The notes beneath the pieces are model-generated. The model was not told the DNA's origin and made no database searches. It saw only the letters and a program-made list of their open reading frames with translations. Positions 6,507-47,811 of a stretch of 49,255 nucleotides of DNA are shown here, piece by piece. The DNA comes from Thermodesulfovibrionia bacterium. GTDB taxonomy: Bacteria > Nitrospirota > Thermodesulfovibrionia > UBA6902. The stretch's first letter is position 1. The number at the start of each line of letters is the position of its first letter. The DNA lies in assembly GCA_947259645.1 (NCBI GenBank), contig CAMYND010000017.1:1-49255 (forward strand), read 5' to 3'. Made by a program: the position numbers and the translations under genes.

Positions 6507-7790
6507 ATGTTCTGTAATCAATGTGAGCAGACAATGGAAGGAGGCTGCGACAAGAAGATCGGGGTATGCGGAAAGAATGAGGACATTGCAAGCCTTCAGG
6601 ATATTGCAATTTTCGGCCTCAAGGGAGTAGCAGCGTATGCACACCACGCGCGTGAACTGGGGGCCATAGATCCGGAGGTCGACTCTGTGATGGCTGAAAC
6701 TCTCTATTCAACACTGACAAATGTGAATTTCCGGCTAAATGACAACGTCGAAACTGTCCTTAAAGTCGGTGAGGCAACTGTTAAAGTGATGGATTTGCTC
6801 GACAAGGCCCACACAGCCAGGCTGGGCATTCCAGAGCCTGTGACCGTGACTGAAAACAAGATAGAAGGAAAGTGCATCCTCGTGTCCGGACACAACCTCC
6901 TGGCCCTTGAGGAACTGTTGAAACAGACTGAGGGCAAGGGCATTAATATATATACCCATTCTGAGATGCTTCCTGCCCACGGTTATCCCAACCTGAAGAA
7001 ATACGATCATCTGAAGGGAAATGTAGGGCAGGCATGGCATGACCAGAGAAGATTATTTGATGATTTTCCCGGGGCGATTCTCATGACCACGAATTGTGTC
7101 ATGCCGGTAAGGGGCACCTATCGGCAAAAACTCTTCACGTACGATGTTACCGGAGTTGAAGAATGTCCATACATAGAGGGCAATGACTTTGCTCCGCTGA
7201 TTGAGAAGGCACTCTCTTTGCCTGCTGCAGACGTGAAATCCGAAAAGACGTTCACTACGGGCTTTCATCATGAAACGGTCCTGGCGCTGGCCCCCCAGAT
7301 AGTTGATGCTGTGAAGTCAGGCAAGATAAAGCGTTTCTTTGTCATTGCAGGGTGCGACGCTCCCGGAAGCGGAGGAGATTATTTCAGGGAACTGGCGGAG
7401 CTTGTCCCAAAAGACTGCGTAATACTCACCACCTCCTGCGGAAAGTTCAGGTTCAATGATATTGATTTCGGGAGCATAAACGGTATCCCGCGCTATATAG
7501 ACCTGGGGCAGTGCAACAACTCGATATCCTGCGTCAAGATAGCCACAGCCCTTGCCGAGGCATTTAACTGCTCCGTTAATGAACTGCCGCTGACGATTGT
7601 ACTCTCATGGTTTGAACAGAAAGCCGTTGCGATCCTGCTGGGCCTGTTCAGCCTTGGTGTGAAAAATATATATCTGGGCCCTGAGCCTCCGGAATTTGTG
7701 ACCCCTTCTGTCTTAAAGGTTCTTCAGGATAACTTTCATTTGAAATTTACCGGGGAGGCTGAAAAGGATATGAGAGCAATGATTCACTAG
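6507..7790 (+). CDS. hcp: Hybrid cluster protein (hydroxylamine reductase), short form
   Basis: A 427-residue cytoplasmic iron-sulfur protein. Hybrid cluster proteins carry a cubane cluster and a Fe-S-O hybrid cluster and act in NO/nitrosative stress or hydroxylamine reduction. The N-terminal cluster cysteines are Cys3, Cys6, Cys14 and Cys21. The conserved core follows: YTHSEMLPAHGYP, MTTNCVMP, AGCDAPG, TTSCGKFRFN, GQCNNS and LSWFEQKAVAILLGL. Usual bacterial proteins are about 540-550 residues. This one lacks about 110 residues of the helical domain between about 105 and 115, matching the shorter class III form known mainly from archaea and thermophiles. AAGGAGGG lies just before the ATG. I looked for FNR- or HcpR-like palindromes upstream and saw none. 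The next gene, a flavoprotein reductase, could serve redox partnership, but that is inference. Confidence 0.93.
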   Translation: MFCNQCEQTMEGGCDKKIGVCGKNEDIASLQDIAIFGLKGVAAYAHHARELGAIDPEVDSVMAETLYSTLTNVNFRLNDNVETVLKVGEATVKVMDLLDKAHTARLGIPEPVTVTENKIEGKCILVSGHNLLALEELLKQTEGKGINIYTHSEMLPAHGYPNLKKYDHLKGNVGQAWHDQRRLFDDFPGAILMTTNCVMPVRGTYRQKLFTYDVTGVEECPYIEGNDFAPLIEKALSLPAADVKSEKTFTTGFHHETVLALAPQIVDAVKSGKIKRFFVIAGCDAPGSGGDYFRELAELVPKDCVILTTSCGKFRFNDIDFGSINGIPRYIDLGQCNNSISCVKIATALAEAFNCSVNELPLTIVLSWFEQKAVAILLGLFSLGVKNIYLGPEPPEFVTPSVLKVLQDNFHLKFTGEAEKDMRAMIH

Positions 7791-40234: not shown

Positions 40235-40385
40235 GATGAAGGATGCATTGAGTATTTCTGAAAGAGCAGCGTCAGAAGGATCAGGCAACGGTGAATGAGC
40301 GTGCAGGTTGATATTGAACCCCTATCTGATATATTTTAAATAATCTGATAACCTTCTTCATTTGTTAAGAAACGTAGCCTTTATT

Positions 40386-43364
40386 ATGCTAAAAAACCTT
40401 ATCGCATTGTCTGTAACAATACTATTTCTTGCTGTTACTCCTCCGGAAGCAGGAGCAGTCCACAAGAATAAGCTCAACGTTGAGATTGATATTAACAAAT
40501 CCCGTTTGACCGGTACATCACGGGTGGGGGTAAAAGGAGGGGAAGAGATTGTTGTGCAACACAGAGGTCTGGAAATCCTGAAAATAGTTCAGGATGACAA
40601 GGAGCTCCCTGTTCAGCAGCGTGATGGGTATATCATTGTCATGCCGGAAAAATATGGTGTTGTGGAGATATTTTATCAGGCTACATATGACAACTCTTCT
40701 TCAACTCAGACAGGCAGAGGGTTTGCCGCCAATGTTATCGACAACAGAGGAGTGTCCCTTACAGGGATATGGTATCCCATTATCGGTGACCTCAATTACT
40801 ATGATCTTACGGTGACGCTCCCTGTGGGATATGAAGCGATATCAGAGGCAGAGGAGATCAGAAAGAAGGAGAGCAAAGAGAGGGTAGAATTTCAGTTTGT
40901 CTTTTCCCATCCTGTTGACGGTATTAATCTTGTAGCCTCTGACAGATACACCATTGTAAAAGACAACCATGAAAATGTTGAAATTTACGCGTATTTTTTC
41001 AGGGAGGATCTTCATCTGGCAAAAACCTATATTGAGTATACGAAAAAATATCTGAAATTCTATGAGGACCTTATCGGCCCCTATCCCTATAAACGGTTCG
41101 CCATAGTTGAGAATTTTCTGCCAACCGGCTACTCAATGCCTACCTATACGCTCCTTGGAAGCAGTGTTGTCAGGCTACCCTTTATTGTAAAGACTTCCCT
41201 GGGGCATGAAATACTGCACCAGTGGTTCGGCAATCTCGTATACATTGATCATGAGACGGGCAACTGGGCGGAAGGTCTCACAACATATCTGGCGGATTAC
41301 CTTTACCTGGAGCAGGAAAACAAAGGAATGGAATACAGAAAACAGATGCTTATCAGCTATATGAGCTATGTTGATGCTGAGCATGATCTGCCATTGAAAT
41401 ATTTTAAAGGCGGTACAGATAAGGCTTCCCGGGCGATCGGGTATGGCAAGACAGCAATGGTGTTTCATATGCTGAAGAATATTGTTGGAAAGGAAGTGTT
41501 TTACGATTCGCTGAGAGATGTCATCAATGAATACAGCTTTCGCAAGGCATCATGGGATAATTTCAGGACTTCCTTTGAGAAAAAATATGGTCAGGACCTT
41601 CAATGGTTTTTCAGTCAATGGACGGAAAAGGAGGGACTCTTTGAACTCCGACTTCATGGGACTGAACTCACGCAGAAAGGTGAAGAGTATGAGCTTCATT
41701 TCCATATTGACCAGGAAGGAAGTCTCTTTCAGCTGGCCCTTCCTATAACAATATATTATAAAGACCAGGTTTCGTTTGACACCCTCAGGATAAACGATGA
41801 AGAGAACAGCTTTGAATTAACCCTGCCGGAGGCGCCGAGCAGGATCGTCCTCGATGAGGATTACGATATTGCAAGGGGGCTCAACAGGGACGAGTATCCT
41901 CCTGTCATTTCAGGGCTTCTGGGAGAAGACGAGCTCATCGTTGCTGTTCCGGAAGGCGGAGAAATACTCTATGGAAAAATAATAGAGAAATTTGTAGAAC
42001 TGGGGGCGGTCGAGAAGCCGGTTGAAGATATTACCATTGCTGATATTGAGGCCGGCTCTCTTGTCCTCTTCGGCAACAGCAGTCAACTGGTTCAACGATT
42101 GTACGGCAGTATTTCCGGTTTTGATGCCGGATTCCAGGTCACGGTCAAAAAAAATCCCTGGAACAGAGAGAAAATTATCGCGGTATTTGACGGTACATCG
42201 AGGGATGAAGTTGATGCAGCCTACAGGAAAGTAAGACATTACGGCAAGTACAGCAGACTGGCATTTGATAACGGCATAATCAAAGAGAAAGAAATAGCGG
42301 AATCTCAGAGGGGTATAGTCATGGAACTGAAAGAGGACGCGACAGCGATAGATATGTCTGCCGTAAATAAACTGTCCGATGTAATCACAAAAGTTGCTGA
42401 AAAGAAAATTGTATACGTGGGAGAAGTCCACAATGTTTTTGCCCACCATGCTGTCCAGCTAGACATTATAACGGGCATATACAAGAAGAATAAGAATATA
42501 GCGATCGGCATGGAGATGTTCCAGCGGCCTTTCCAGGAAACACTGGACAGTTTTATATCAGGAACCCTGGGTGAACAGGCTTTTCTGAAAGAGTCGGAAT
42601 ACTATAAAAGGTGGAGTTTTGACTACCACCTGTACAAACCTATCCTTGATTTTGCCAGAACAGAAAAAATTCCGCTCGTGGCACTGAATCTGAAACGTGA
42701 AATCATTGAAAAAGTTTCTGCCAATGGTCTGGATTTCCTTGATGATCAGGAGAAAGAGGAAATACCGGCGGAACTCGATTTTACGGACGCTGCTTACAGG
42801 GAGAGGCTTGAAGAGGTGTTCACCATGCATACCCGTTCACATGAAAGGAACTTTAATAATTTTTACCAGTCCCAGATACTGTGGGATGAAACAATGTCCG
42901 AGTCAGTGGACAACTATCTCAGAGAGAATCCTGACCGTCAGATGATCGTGCTGGCAGGCCAGGGCCATCTCCGCTACAGGTCCGGCATTCCCGCAAGAAC
43001 ATACAGGAGAAATAGCTTTGATTATGCGACGATTCTGATTGATGAGGACGTTAAAGCGGATATCGGAGATTTCATTATATTCCCGAAGACTGTTGAGGGA
43101 ATTACCACCCCGAAGCTTATGGTTTTTCTGGAGGAGATAGAGGACAGGGTAAAGGTCTCGGGTTTTCCTGATGCAAGCGTGTCTGAAAGGGCAGGTCTTA
43201 AAGAGCGGGACATAATTCTGTCCATAAATGATGTTGAGGTACGCACTGTCGGTGACCTCAAGATACAACTGCTGTATAAAAAGAAGGGAGACAGTGTCAG
43301 GTTGCGGGTCTTGAGAAAGGTAATGTTTTTAGATAAGAACGTGGATATTGAAATAGAGCTGTAG
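40386..43364 (+). CDS. Exported peptidase M1-ChaN-PDZ fusion
   Basis: About 992 residues, with a signal peptide (LIALSVTILFLAVTPPEAGA). An M1-type metallopeptidase domain comes first: HEILHQWFGN gives two zinc His and the catalytic Glu, and NWAEGLTTY gives the third zinc ligand. The spacing between them is one residue shorter than the canonical 18, and no GAMEN exopeptidase motif is seen, so substrate handling may differ. A region of unknown fold follows (about 545-670). A ChaN-like domain comes next (about 680-900; VYVGEVHNVFAHHAVQLDII, MEMFQRP, GQGHLRYRSGIP). Last is a PDZ domain (about 925-985). ChaN is known as an outer-membrane lipoprotein that binds haem. The start is the ATG at 40386; a TTG at 40362 is possible. 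It ends 17 bases before the metallopterin fusion, so co-transcription is likely. Confidence 0.87.
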   Translation: MLKNLIALSVTILFLAVTPPEAGAVHKNKLNVEIDINKSRLTGTSRVGVKGGEEIVVQHRGLEILKIVQDDKELPVQQRDGYIIVMPEKYGVVEIFYQATYDNSSSTQTGRGFAANVIDNRGVSLTGIWYPIIGDLNYYDLTVTLPVGYEAISEAEEIRKKESKERVEFQFVFSHPVDGINLVASDRYTIVKDNHENVEIYAYFFREDLHLAKTYIEYTKKYLKFYEDLIGPYPYKRFAIVENFLPTGYSMPTYTLLGSSVVRLPFIVKTSLGHEILHQWFGNLVYIDHETGNWAEGLTTYLADYLYLEQENKGMEYRKQMLISYMSYVDAEHDLPLKYFKGGTDKASRAIGYGKTAMVFHMLKNIVGKEVFYDSLRDVINEYSFRKASWDNFRTSFEKKYGQDLQWFFSQWTEKEGLFELRLHGTELTQKGEEYELHFHIDQEGSLFQLALPITIYYKDQVSFDTLRINDEENSFELTLPEAPSRIVLDEDYDIARGLNRDEYPPVISGLLGEDELIVAVPEGGEILYGKIIEKFVELGAVEKPVEDITIADIEAGSLVLFGNSSQLVQRLYGSISGFDAGFQVTVKKNPWNREKIIAVFDGTSRDEVDAAYRKVRHYGKYSRLAFDNGIIKEKEIAESQRGIVMELKEDATAIDMSAVNKLSDVITKVAEKKIVYVGEVHNVFAHHAVQLDIITGIYKKNKNIAIGMEMFQRPFQETLDSFISGTLGEQAFLKESEYYKRWSFDYHLYKPILDFARTEKIPLVALNLKREIIEKVSANGLDFLDDQEKEEIPAELDFTDAAYRERLEEVFTMHTRSHERNFNNFYQSQILWDETMSESVDNYLRENPDRQMIVLAGQGHLRYRSGIPARTYRRNSFDYATILIDEDVKADIGDFIIFPKTVEGITTPKLMVFLEEIEDRVKVSGFPDASVSERAGLKERDIILSINDVEVRTVGDLKIQLLYKKKGDSVRLRVLRKVMFLDKNVDIEIEL

Positions 43365-43381
43365 CTGTATGACAATCTTAT

Positions 43382-46300
43382 ATGACCTTGAACGAAAAGA
43401 ATAGGAACAGTGAACGCCGTGCCCTCTGCGGCATCTGCCCTGCCGGCTGCTGGGTGATTGTAACCTATGACAATGAGGGCAGGATCGAGAAAGTCCGCCC
43501 TGATGAAAGCTCCAGTCTGGGAGTGATCTGCAGGCTTGGTGAGAGTTCCCCTGACATAGTCTATTCCAAAGACCGTCTGCATTACCCAATGAGAAGAAAA
43601 GGCCCCCGGGGGGCCTATGATTTTGAACGGATATCATGGGATGACGCGTACGGAATTATCGTTGAAAAGCTCAATGCCATTAAGAAAAAATATGGACCAG
43701 AGGCCCTTTCCATATACACCGGCAGGGGAAGTTTTGAACTGGCGATGTGCGACGTATTCCAGCCGAAAGGGGTAGCTGTTTCCTCTGCTTCCAGTGTGCT
43801 CTTCCCCTTTGGGTCTCCAAACACAATGGGAGTAGGCGCGCTGTGCTATGTTTCATTCGCCATGATAGCTCCCCATGTAACCATGGGCAGCATGATGATC
43901 AATATGTTTTCAGATATTGAAAATGCCGGTTTGATTGTAGTCTGGGGTGCAAACCCGGCAACAGATTGCCCTCCCCTTGACCTGAACAGGATCATCGAGG
44001 CCCAGAACAGGGGAGCGGAAGTGGTGGTCATAGATCCCAGGCGCACCATGACGGCAAAGCTTGTCAACGCAGAATGGGTTCCTGTCCGGCCCGGGACAGA
44101 CGGTGCACTTGCCCTTGGTATGTGTAATATCCTGATAAGCGAAGAGCTTTATGATGAGGCCTTTATCAGGGAATGGTCAGTTGGCTTTGAGGAGTTTTCC
44201 CGATATGTCCAGCATTTCAGGCCTGAAGTTGTTGAGGATATTACCGGGGTGTCTGCTGCTGCAATAGTCAGTCTCGCAAGACGCATTGCTTCAGCAGACG
44301 GCGCAAGTCCTGTTATGTACAGCGGCCTCGAGTACAGTGACAGCGGGGTCCAGGCAATACGGGCAACACAGGTGCTCTGGGCCATGGCAGGACAGCTCGA
44401 TGTCCCGGGAGGACGCTGTTTCAGCATGAGGGAGAACAGCTTTCCCATCAACAAAAATGGCCACATTGAAAACCCTGACGTGAGGAAAGCGCTGGGCCGG
44501 GATCGATTCCCTGTTTACAGCTCCTACAGGGGCGAGTCTCATGCGATTGCTTTGCCGGATTCTGTCCTGCATGGGAAGCCATACAAGGTCAGGTCACTGA
44601 TAATTTTGGGTGGATCCATGATAACTGCCTGGCCTCAGCCTGAGATCTGGAAAAAAACATTAAATGCTCTGGAATTCCTTGTTTGCATAGACCGACAGCT
44701 TACAGCGGATGCGGCATATGCTGACATTGTGCTTCCGGGAAGTACCATGTATGAGATCGAATCCTACATGACCTACGGTCCTGTTTTCAGAATTCGCGAA
44801 AAAGTCGTTGAGCCTGTTGGTGAAGCAAGAAATGATTTTTTCATTATGGCTGAACTTGCCCAAAGACTCGGTTACGGACACCTCTATCCCCAGAATGAGG
44901 AAGAGCTGTTAAGGCATGTATTACAGGGCTCAGGATATTCCCTTGAAGATGTTCAGGAGGCCGGAGGAATTGTTCAGAAAGAGGCGAAAATTATGCAATA
45001 CCGGAAATGGGAAAAAGGGCTGTTGAGAAAAGACGGTATGCCCGGTTTTGACACTCCCACAGGTAAGTTTGAAATTGCCTCAACAATCCTGGAAGAACAT
45101 GGCTATGATGCCCTTCCTGTTTACACAGAGCCCCGGGAAGGGCCCCTGTCGAGGCCTGATCTGTCCCGGAAATATCCTCTTGTTTTTAATTCAGGAGCAC
45201 GGGTTACAACAGATTTCCGTTCCCAGCATCATGGTGTCAGGGCTTTAAATAAGGACCGGCCTGAACCGACGGTCACCATAAACAGAGGAGATGCTGAGCA
45301 GCGGGGCATAGAAATGGGTGACATTGTCAGCATCAAAACCCAGAGGGGGAGCGTTCAGATGAGAGCCTTTGTGACAGAAGATATTGTCCAGGGTGCTGTT
45401 GATGCGAATATGGGAGGGGGCGGCCCAATAGGACCTGAAGCATGGCAGAAATGCAATATAAATGAGTTGACAGACCTTCAGGCCTATGACCCTGTTTCAG
45501 GTTTTCCGGTCTACAAAGCCCTTTTGTGTGAGGTGGAGAAGGTCCTCAAAGGGGAAGGCGCTGCTGCGATCGATTCGGGAGAATATGATGTATCGAGTGT
45601 TGCCTTTACAGAAGAACAGTCCCCGGAGCCGGCAGCGCGTATTTATCTCGACCACAATGCCACAACCCCTCTGGATGATGAAGTCCGGAAAGTAATAGTT
45701 GAGCATATGGAAGACAACAACGGAAATCCATCCGGTATTTATCACGAAGGGAGAAAAGCTGCGTTGAGCCTTGAATCAGCCCGCAGAAGCCTTTCCCGGC
45801 TCCTGAACTGCACCGCCCGCAGGATAGTATTCACCGGCTCCGGATCAGAAGCGAACAACCTTGCCCTGAAAGGTGCAGCCTTTGCACAGGGGGGCAGAAA
45901 AAAGCATATCATTACCTCATCGATTGAACACCCGTCAATCCTGGCGGCCTGCGCGTGGCTGGAAACGTACGGCTGTGCTGTAACCTGTCTGAACGTTGAT
46001 TCAACAGGGATAGTCGACCCCGGTGACCTCGAAAGAGCAATACATCAGGATACCTTTCTCGTCAGCATCATGACGGCCAATAACGAGACAGGATCAATAC
46101 AGCCTGTATCTGAAATTGCAGAAATATGCAGAAGGAAAAAAGTTATTTTCCATACTGATGCAACCCAGGCTGTCGGTAAAATCGAGGTGGACGTTGAGGA
46201 GTATGGAGCAGACCTCCTGACGCTGTCGGGCCACAAGTTTCATGGACCCAAAGGGACAGGGGCCCTTTATATGAGAAAAGGGGTCCTCCTGGATTCGCTC

Positions 46301-46792
46301 GTTCACGGGGGTAAGCAGGAAAAGGGCATACGGGCCGGTACGGAAAATCTCGCAGGAATAGCAGGCCTTGGCAAGGCCTCCGAACTTGCGGTGCAGAGAC
46401 TGCCTGAAATGGAAAGAGTCAAACAGATGCGGGACAGTTTGGAGAACCGCATACAGGCCTTAATCTCCGGAGCACGGATGAATGGGCACTGTGATAACCG
46501 TCTTCCCAATACGCTCAATATGATGTTGCCGGGGTTCAGAGGAGAATCGCTTGTGATGGCCCTTGACCGGGAAGGTGTCTCCCTGTCATCGGGATCTGCC
46601 TGCCGCTCAGGCTCGCCGAAACCGTCTCACGCACTAATGGCCATGGGGCTGACAGAAGAGGAAGCACACTGTTCAATACGGATGACACTTGGCATCGGGA
46701 ATACCTCTGAAGAAATTCAACGTGTAGTGACGATCCTTGAACGGGTCATAAACAAAACAGCGCATGAGGTGAGGTTTGCCCCCTGCCGTTAA
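43382..46792 (+). CDS. Metallopterin oxidoreductase-cysteine desulfurase fusion, probable ergothioneine synthase
   Basis: A 1136-residue fusion. The N-terminal part (about 1-720) is a DMSO-reductase-family molybdo- or tungstopterin enzyme: a 4Fe-4S motif with Cys16, Cys19, Cys23 and Cys50, ISWDDAYGIIVEKL, VWGANPATDCPP, DPRRTMTA and the late pterin-binding domain. Cys155 (in GVGALCY) sits at the place of the metal ligand. The C-terminal part (about 752-1120) is a complete IscS/NifS desulfurase: YLDHNATTPLDDEV, TGSGSEANNLAL, PLP-lysine Lys952 in SGHKFHG and active-site Cys1074 in SGSACRSGS. This order, with egtD directly after, matches the metallopterin-dependent ergothioneine synthase I recall from Caldithrix abyssi. 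The desulfurase would supply sulfur from cysteine to the C2 of hercynine's imidazole without oxygen. No clear ribosome site precedes the ATG, so translation may couple to the gene upstream. Confidence 0.88.
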   Translation: MTLNEKNRNSERRALCGICPAGCWVIVTYDNEGRIEKVRPDESSSLGVICRLGESSPDIVYSKDRLHYPMRRKGPRGAYDFERISWDDAYGIIVEKLNAIKKKYGPEALSIYTGRGSFELAMCDVFQPKGVAVSSASSVLFPFGSPNTMGVGALCYVSFAMIAPHVTMGSMMINMFSDIENAGLIVVWGANPATDCPPLDLNRIIEAQNRGAEVVVIDPRRTMTAKLVNAEWVPVRPGTDGALALGMCNILISEELYDEAFIREWSVGFEEFSRYVQHFRPEVVEDITGVSAAAIVSLARRIASADGASPVMYSGLEYSDSGVQAIRATQVLWAMAGQLDVPGGRCFSMRENSFPINKNGHIENPDVRKALGRDRFPVYSSYRGESHAIALPDSVLHGKPYKVRSLIILGGSMITAWPQPEIWKKTLNALEFLVCIDRQLTADAAYADIVLPGSTMYEIESYMTYGPVFRIREKVVEPVGEARNDFFIMAELAQRLGYGHLYPQNEEELLRHVLQGSGYSLEDVQEAGGIVQKEAKIMQYRKWEKGLLRKDGMPGFDTPTGKFEIASTILEEHGYDALPVYTEPREGPLSRPDLSRKYPLVFNSGARVTTDFRSQHHGVRALNKDRPEPTVTINRGDAEQRGIEMGDIVSIKTQRGSVQMRAFVTEDIVQGAVDANMGGGGPIGPEAWQKCNINELTDLQAYDPVSGFPVYKALLCEVEKVLKGEGAAAIDSGEYDVSSVAFTEEQSPEPAARIYLDHNATTPLDDEVRKVIVEHMEDNNGNPSGIYHEGRKAALSLESARRSLSRLLNCTARRIVFTGSGSEANNLALKGAAFAQGGRKKHIITSSIEHPSILAACAWLETYGCAVTCLNVDSTGIVDPGDLERAIHQDTFLVSIMTANNETGSIQPVSEIAEICRRKKVIFHTDATQAVGKIEVDVEEYGADLLTLSGHKFHGPKGTGALYMRKGVLLDSLVHGGKQEKGIRAGTENLAGIAGLGKASELAVQRLPEMERVKQMRDSLENRIQALISGARMNGHCDNRLPNTLNMMLPGFRGESLVMALDREGVSLSSGSACRSGSPKPSHALMAMGLTEEEAHCSIRMTLGIGNTSEEIQRVVTILERVINKTAHEVRFAPCR

Positions 46793-46812
46793 TAAAAACA
46801 AGGGAATAACAG

Positions 46813-47811
46813 ATGAGTAAAGAATTGATTTTGAAAAAAGAGCGGATCGAGGTAAGGAGCCGCGTAGCACAGACTTACAGCAGCAGCATCGCCACTGATG
46901 TGTACCGGGGACTGACCGCTTCCCAGAAATATATCCCGAGTAAATATTTTTATGATGACCGAGGGTCCCGGCTTTTTGATGAAATCTGCTATTTGCCGGA
47001 GTATTATCCAACGAGGACAGAGATGTCGATACTCGACAGTGTTGCGTCTGAAATTATGGCGCCTTTTGGTGAGGGAGATATTGTCGAACTGGGATCAGGA
47101 GCAAACCGCAAGATACGGGTGCTTCTCGACGCTGTCGGTCCTGAGCGGATATCCTCTTTCCGTTATGTGCCGGTTGATGTGAGCGAGGCAGCACTGATTG
47201 CCTCTTCCAAGGAACTGCTGGAGCTCTATCCTGATCTCGAAGTTCTCGGTATTATCGCTGACTTCACGGTCCATCTGAAAGACCTTCCCTCTGACAGGCC
47301 GAGGATGATCATTTTTCTGGGCAGTACGATCGGTAACTTTCATGAGCGGGAGAGGAAAAAATTTCTAAGCCTTGTGGCTGAGACAATGACCCCTGATGAC
47401 AGGTTTCTTATAGGCTTTGATATGATAAAGCAAAAGAAGACACTTGAAGCCGCCTATAACGACTCTCAAGGCCTGACATCCGCTTTTAATAAAAATGTGC
47501 TGCATGTGCTTAACCGTGAGTTAAAGGCTGATTTCAATCCCACAGAGTTTAAACACGTAGCTTTTTTTAACGAGGAAATGGAACGGGTGGAGATGCACCT
47601 CCAGGCAAAGGAAGATATGGAGATCCGTGTGAAAGATCTCGACCTGACTATTGAACTGGAAAAGGACGAAACCATTCATACGGAGATTTGCGCAAAATTC
47701 AGCAGGGAAGGGATCAAGCGCATGGCAGCTGACCTTGGACTTGAAATAAGACGATGGTTCTTTGACGAGAAAGCCTGGTTTTCCCTTGCAGAGCTTGTGC
47801 TCAAGGACTAA
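46813..47811 (+). CDS. egtD: L-histidine N-alpha-methyltransferase
   Basis: A 332-residue SAM-dependent enzyme that methylates histidine three times to hercynine, the first step of ergothioneine synthesis. Family marks: KYFYDDRGSRLFDEICYLPE, SAM-binding VELGSGANRKIRVLLDAV, VPVDVSEAAL, FLGSTIGNFHE, QGLTSAFNKNVLHVLNREL and HTEICAKFSREG. The binding pair in characterised EgtD proteins is Glu and Ser in TEIS; here the Ser is Cys (TEIC). It starts 20 bases after the metallopterin fusion with AAGGGAA as ribosome site, so the two form an operon. No oxygen-dependent EgtB is present in the window. Its stop overlaps the convergent VanZ gene by 11 bases. Confidence 0.92.
   Translation: MSKELILKKERIEVRSRVAQTYSSSIATDVYRGLTASQKYIPSKYFYDDRGSRLFDEICYLPEYYPTRTEMSILDSVASEIMAPFGEGDIVELGSGANRKIRVLLDAVGPERISSFRYVPVDVSEAALIASSKELLELYPDLEVLGIIADFTVHLKDLPSDRPRMIIFLGSTIGNFHERERKKFLSLVAETMTPDDRFLIGFDMIKQKKTLEAAYNDSQGLTSAFNKNVLHVLNRELKADFNPTEFKHVAFFNEEMERVEMHLQAKEDMEIRVKDLDLTIELEKDETIHTEICAKFSREGIKRMAADLGLEIRRWFFDEKAWFSLAELVLKD

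Follow-up and report, generated by a model that had tools for sequence, protein, structure and literature searches.

A predicted oxygen-independent ergothioneine cassette pairing a metallopterin-dependent synthase with EgtD in a Thermodesulfovibrionia bacterium

Introduction

Does a gene that fuses a metallopterin module to a cysteine desulfurase, followed closely by a histidine methyltransferase gene, equip its host to make ergothioneine in the absence of oxygen? The question is raised by a locus within a 49,255 nt stretch of DNA from a Thermodesulfovibrionia bacterium (assembly GCA_947259645.1, contig CAMYND010000017.1, positions 1-49,255, forward strand; GTDB lineage Bacteria; Nitrospirota; Thermodesulfovibrionia; UBA6902), the whole of which we refer to as the window. 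Metallopterin-dependent ergothioneine synthase (MES) was described from Caldithrix abyssi by Beliaeva & Seebeck in 2022 (PMC9516567). In this enzyme, CaMES, a pterin module (residues 1-718) precedes a desulfurase (747-1136); C14, C17, C21 and C48 belong to the cluster, C153 is the metal ligand, and the desulfurase contains K952, the persulfide cysteines C1074 and C1135, and a conserved C1097 (PMC9516567). CaMES was shown to carry out its reaction in E. coli; the C153S, K952A, C1074S and C1135S variants form essentially no ergothioneine, and sulfur transfer takes place within one polypeptide (PMC9516567).

Here we report that the window pair is, judged by sequence, almost certainly a MES/EgtD cassette, and that it should yield the antioxidant ergothioneine without oxygen. 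As the class has been known since 2022, the pair is a further well-preserved example and nothing new in kind.

Results

The fusion protein matches the residue fingerprint of CaMES

The fusion gene (43382-46792, + strand) encodes 1136 aa in one uninterrupted frame. Its N-terminal bis-MGD metallopterin module covers approximately residues 1-723 (43382-45550, + strand), with Pfam matches across residues 1-713 to Molybdopterin (PF00384, 2e-44) and Molydop_binding (PF01568, 4e-18). The C-terminal NifS/IscS-type cysteine desulfurase module spans approximately residues 754-1136 (45641-46789, + strand), matches Aminotran_5 (PF00266, 1e-72) over residues 754-1115 and aligns with solved cysteine desulfurases at an E value of 1e-95; it scores 458.8 bits against TIGR03402, below the equivalog cut-off of 530.75. 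Among solved structures, the nearest relative of the pterin module is acetylene hydratase (2e7z), and formate dehydrogenases also appear. AlphaFold2, run on a 23-row alignment, modelled the desulfurase well and the pterin module poorly (mean pLDDT 64.6).

Comparison with the published residues of CaMES revealed a match at every position of the fingerprint. The 4Fe-4S motif, C16-x2-C19-x3-C23 ... C50 (43427-43531, + strand), corresponds to C14/C17/C21/C48 of CaMES, and C155 (43844-43846, + strand), the cysteine predicted to ligate the Mo/W ion, corresponds to C153; the spacings of 3, 4, 27 and 105 among these five residues equal those of CaMES. In the desulfurase module, the PLP lysine K952 (46235-46237, + strand; SGHK motif) and the first persulfide cysteine C1074 (46601-46603, + strand; SSGSAC motif) bear the same numbers as in CaMES and, together with C1097 and the second relay cysteine C1135 (46784-46786, + strand; RFxxCR tail), are separated by the same intervals.

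An earlier note on this DNA had placed the two reading frames and the 20-base gap between them exactly, to the base. The 4Fe-4S motif, metallopterin domain and desulfurase with Lys952 and Cys1074 that it described were all recovered by motif and Pfam searches under the same numbering, and the Caldithrix-type layout that it proposed is borne out by the fingerprint above. C155 and C1135, the latter at the extreme C-terminus, had gone unmentioned there and are both present. NCBIfam contains no model that names MES, and routine annotation would therefore probably label such proteins as a cysteine desulfurase or an oxidoreductase.

EgtD follows the fusion

Located 20 bases past the MES stop codon, the second gene (46813-47811, + strand) encodes a 332 aa EgtD, or L-histidine N-alpha-methyltransferase, as had been claimed: it scores 372.5 bits against TIGR03438, above the equivalog cut-off of 290.9, matches Methyltransf_33 (PF10017) at 6e-112 and aligns with PDB entry 4pim at an E value of 2e-74. 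Five of the six histidine-site residues are conserved. Y39, Y56, N166, Y206 and E282 (M. smegmatis numbering) are kept here and in each of the 29 further EgtDs that we compared; at the sixth position, Ser284, the window EgtD and those of the loci L009, L011 and L044 have Cys, and the rest have Ser. In EgtD structures, Ser284 binds the histidine carboxylate together with Tyr56 and Tyr206 (PMC8593015). A Cys could probably fill the same role.

Both modules of the fusion form clades of their own

A scan of genome contigs returned 28 loci, the fusion being present in 26. Homologues are 55-74% identical along nearly the whole fusion, which excludes chance as an explanation for it, and C16, C19, C23, C50, C155, K952, C1074, C1097 and C1135 are invariant in 23/23 full-length fusions. 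Three loci carry a MES frame split into two or three ORFs (L034:5995-9412, L026:5926-9397 and L028:1-3295), the first of them in the isolate genome of Geotalea toluenoxydans; these are either sequencing errors or decaying genes.

We then ran the phylogenetic check suggested in the earlier note, using quick trees whose deep branches are long; only the MES clade was used, and the order among outgroups was disregarded. In the pterin tree, 29 MES N-terminal modules form one clade with an SH-aLRT support of 100 and do not group with the families of other known function included in the tree. Acetylene hydratase, formate dehydrogenase H, the hydrogen-dependent CO2-reductase FdhF, thiosulfate/polysulfide reductase and two paralogues from the window's own genome all fall outside it. 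The clade is tied to CaMES by the published residue fingerprint and not by the CaMES sequence itself. Within it, the window MES lies beside those of BMS3Abin06, a Nitrospira MAG and one genome of the same family.

No curated cut-off among the DMSO-reductase-family equivalogs, formate dehydrogenase included, is reached by the pterin module. We reject identification as a formate dehydrogenase from the tree and the curated cut-off (Fdh-alpha, the best match, gives 297.6 bits versus 666.25), and identification as an acetylene hydratase from curated cut-offs and tree placement.

The fused desulfurase modules likewise form one clade (support 99) when compared with 10 stand-alone enzymes, and the C1135 tail is missing from 10/10 stand-alone cysteine desulfurases, three of which are from the window's own genome. 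Each half being a single clade, as one fusion event predicts, these sequences suggest that the fusion probably arose once.

MES and EgtD are linked across a patchy distribution

EgtD adjoins the fusion in 30/33 fusion loci, in either order: 24/26 from the scan of genome contigs, 5/6 from genomes of the phylum, and the window itself. EgtD precedes MES in 10 of these loci and follows it in 20. At the two exceptions among the genome contigs (L020 and L022), EgtD is encoded elsewhere in the genome. No third conserved cassette gene was found among 30+ neighbourhoods, where only MES and EgtD recur widely. A gene of 92-93 aa with an EGNHYFPP motif lies directly upstream of MES at three loci (L012:441-722, L047:7094-7372 and L048:6932-7210); it is not in the window, and the L047 copy has no NCBIfam match.

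MES occurs in 7/296 sampled genomes of the window's phylum, a patchy distribution. Six of the MES genomes also contain EgtD, and no EgtD was found in nine genomes of the same family that lack MES. The exception, G154, is 99% complete and encodes a full MES (L045:7308-10703), with no EgtD found in the genome; this MES may act on hercynine taken up from outside, or on a different substrate. Three genomes of the same class (L047-L049) carry MES that group with those of Thermodesulfobacteriota in the pterin tree, suggesting that the cassette has been transferred horizontally. In the EgtD tree, EgtD from Geobacteraceae-type EgtD-MES loci stand apart from those of other loci. In one Myxococcales MAG (G296, with its MES at L020), MES and EgtD are accompanied by an EgtB that exceeds the curated cut-off, the three genes lying on separate contigs; unless this MAG is mixed, oxygen-free and oxygen-dependent routes to ergothioneine are present in one genome.

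Stand-alone pterin proteins resemble the N-terminal half of MES

Two loci (L035:5887-8214 and L036:1-1998) encode MES-like metallopterin proteins that are 47-48% identical to the N-terminal module of the window MES and keep the metal cysteine. Both proteins end before any desulfurase domain, and neither has EgtD alongside. The L035 genome, from Tectomicrobia, encodes EgtD elsewhere, as well as an EgtB-like protein just below the cut-off. These proteins may represent the unfused relative that gave rise to MES. We searched the window's phylum for a desulfurase-less sister group of this type and found none. At another Tectomicrobia locus (L052:1309-3906, on contig G298:C7), EgtD is followed by an ABC ATPase and, by eye, an OpuC-like betaine-type substrate-binding protein; a hercynine or ergothioneine transporter is one possible identity for these transport genes.

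Genomic context of the cassette

The cassette copy is the single EgtD of the window's genome, which also contains MoaA, for molybdopterin synthesis, and several other DMSO-reductase-family enzymes, two of them with an in-frame TGA. EgtB was not found in this genome above the curated cut-off; a weak match is of a type also seen in control genomes. Ending 17 bases before MES, a 1000 aa gene (40362-43364, + strand) encodes an M1-peptidase-like/ChaN haem-binding/PDZ fusion. It is probably co-transcribed with MES and is at most a candidate member of the pathway. Upstream of MES elsewhere, a homologue is present in L009, a broken remnant in L011 and none in L044-L046.

Two other genes of the window drew our attention. 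One (112-2814) encodes a sensor histidine kinase with an NMT1/THI5-like binding domain as its N-terminal sensor; the other (6507-7790) matches the prismane/hybrid-cluster profile from position 162 of 513, and is a short or N-terminally lacking form.

Discussion

We observe in the window both genes and the named residues, together with the family grouping and gene linkage, and infer by analogy that the two proteins act as CaMES and EgtD do, including in the details at the metal. EgtD would methylate histidine three times from SAM to give hercynine (trimethylhistidine, TMH). The desulfurase half of MES would remove sulfur from L-cysteine with the PLP on K952 and hold it as a persulfide on C1074, from where C1135 on the C-terminal tail would relay it to the bis-MGD centre, where C155 would ligate the Mo or W ion. 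Transfer of the metal-bound sulfide to C2 of the hercynine imidazole would then produce ergothioneine. No observation spoke directly against this account.

Could the desulfurase instead serve only to mature the cofactor, replacing FdhD in a self-sulfurating DMSO-reductase-family oxidoreductase of the formate dehydrogenase/reductase type? The pterin module does belong to the DMSO-reductase family, with a Cys ligand and a 4Fe-4S cluster, its solved relatives include formate dehydrogenases, and these enzymes need a sulfido ligand derived from a desulfurase (PMC9516567). However, MES modules group neither with formate dehydrogenases nor with reductases, no oxidoreductase equivalog cut-off is reached, and EgtD adjoins the fusion in 30/33 loci. 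In CaMES, moreover, the desulfurase acts in turnover, and the pterin site of the K952A variant remains able to swap sulfur between ergothioneine and TMH (PMC9516567). We therefore consider a self-sulfurating oxidoreductase extremely improbable.

A different doubt concerns the product, which might be a related 2-thioimidazole, such as a thiolated analogue or a thiohistidine with fewer methyl groups. The Cys found in this lineage in place of Ser284, which contacts the carboxylate of histidine, would fit such a product, as would the acceptance by MES of an N-alpha-methyl-fluoro analogue of TMH (PMC9516567). Against this, EgtD lies far above a histidine-specific equivalog cut-off and retains its imidazole- and amine-binding residues, and four MES from diverse organisms, all active in E. 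coli, all gave ergothioneine (PMC9516567); we regard another thioimidazole as highly improbable. It is also very unlikely, in our judgement, that product or use in this lineage departs from textbook ergothioneine synthesis towards a specialised thioimidazole, for example in haem or metal handling. If it did, the Ser284-to-Cys exchange and the upstream ChaN/M1 gene would be its marks.

Read as a MES/EgtD cassette, the window pair is a clear and complete added case of the anaerobic MES route. MES is spread over Nitrospirota, Thermodesulfobacteriota, Myxococcota, Gemmatimonadota, Rokuibacteriota and methanogens of the Methanomicrobiaceae, with a patchy occurrence within a phylum, and the spread of this route would fit a function of ergothioneine beyond oxygen defence. 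Leads of greater interest lie outside the window, in the stand-alone pterin proteins, in G154, where MES was found and EgtD was not, and in the MAG that combines MES with EgtB.

Among known systems, the closest counterpart is CaMES, which shares with the window MES its fusion order and its length of 1136 aa, is likewise co-encoded with a histidine methyltransferase, and has its catalytic and relay residues at positions that are identical or shifted by +2 in the window; the host differs, the nearest relatives of the window MES being in Nitrospirota. The tungsten enzyme acetylene hydratase (PDB 2e7z) has a 4Fe-4S cluster and a Cys metal ligand in common with the pterin module, but it lacks a desulfurase domain, hydrates acetylene and has a long branch that falls outside the MES clade. 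NifS and IscS share the PLP lysine and the SSGSAC loop with the C-terminal module, whereas the latter is fused, has an extra RFxxCR tail bearing C1135, scores below both the NifS and IscS cut-offs and forms a separate clade. The EgtD of Mycobacterium (4pim) is the counterpart of the window EgtD, which is an equivalog match with conserved SAM-site residues and five of the six histidine-site residues; the two differ in the Ser284 to Cys exchange, which the window EgtD shares with three close relatives, and in the partner enzyme, which is MES here and not EgtB. Finally, the EgtB and EanB routes start from hercynine and end in the same product as the MES route, but EgtB needs O2, and EanB, an enzyme of the rhodanese type, is not related to MES.
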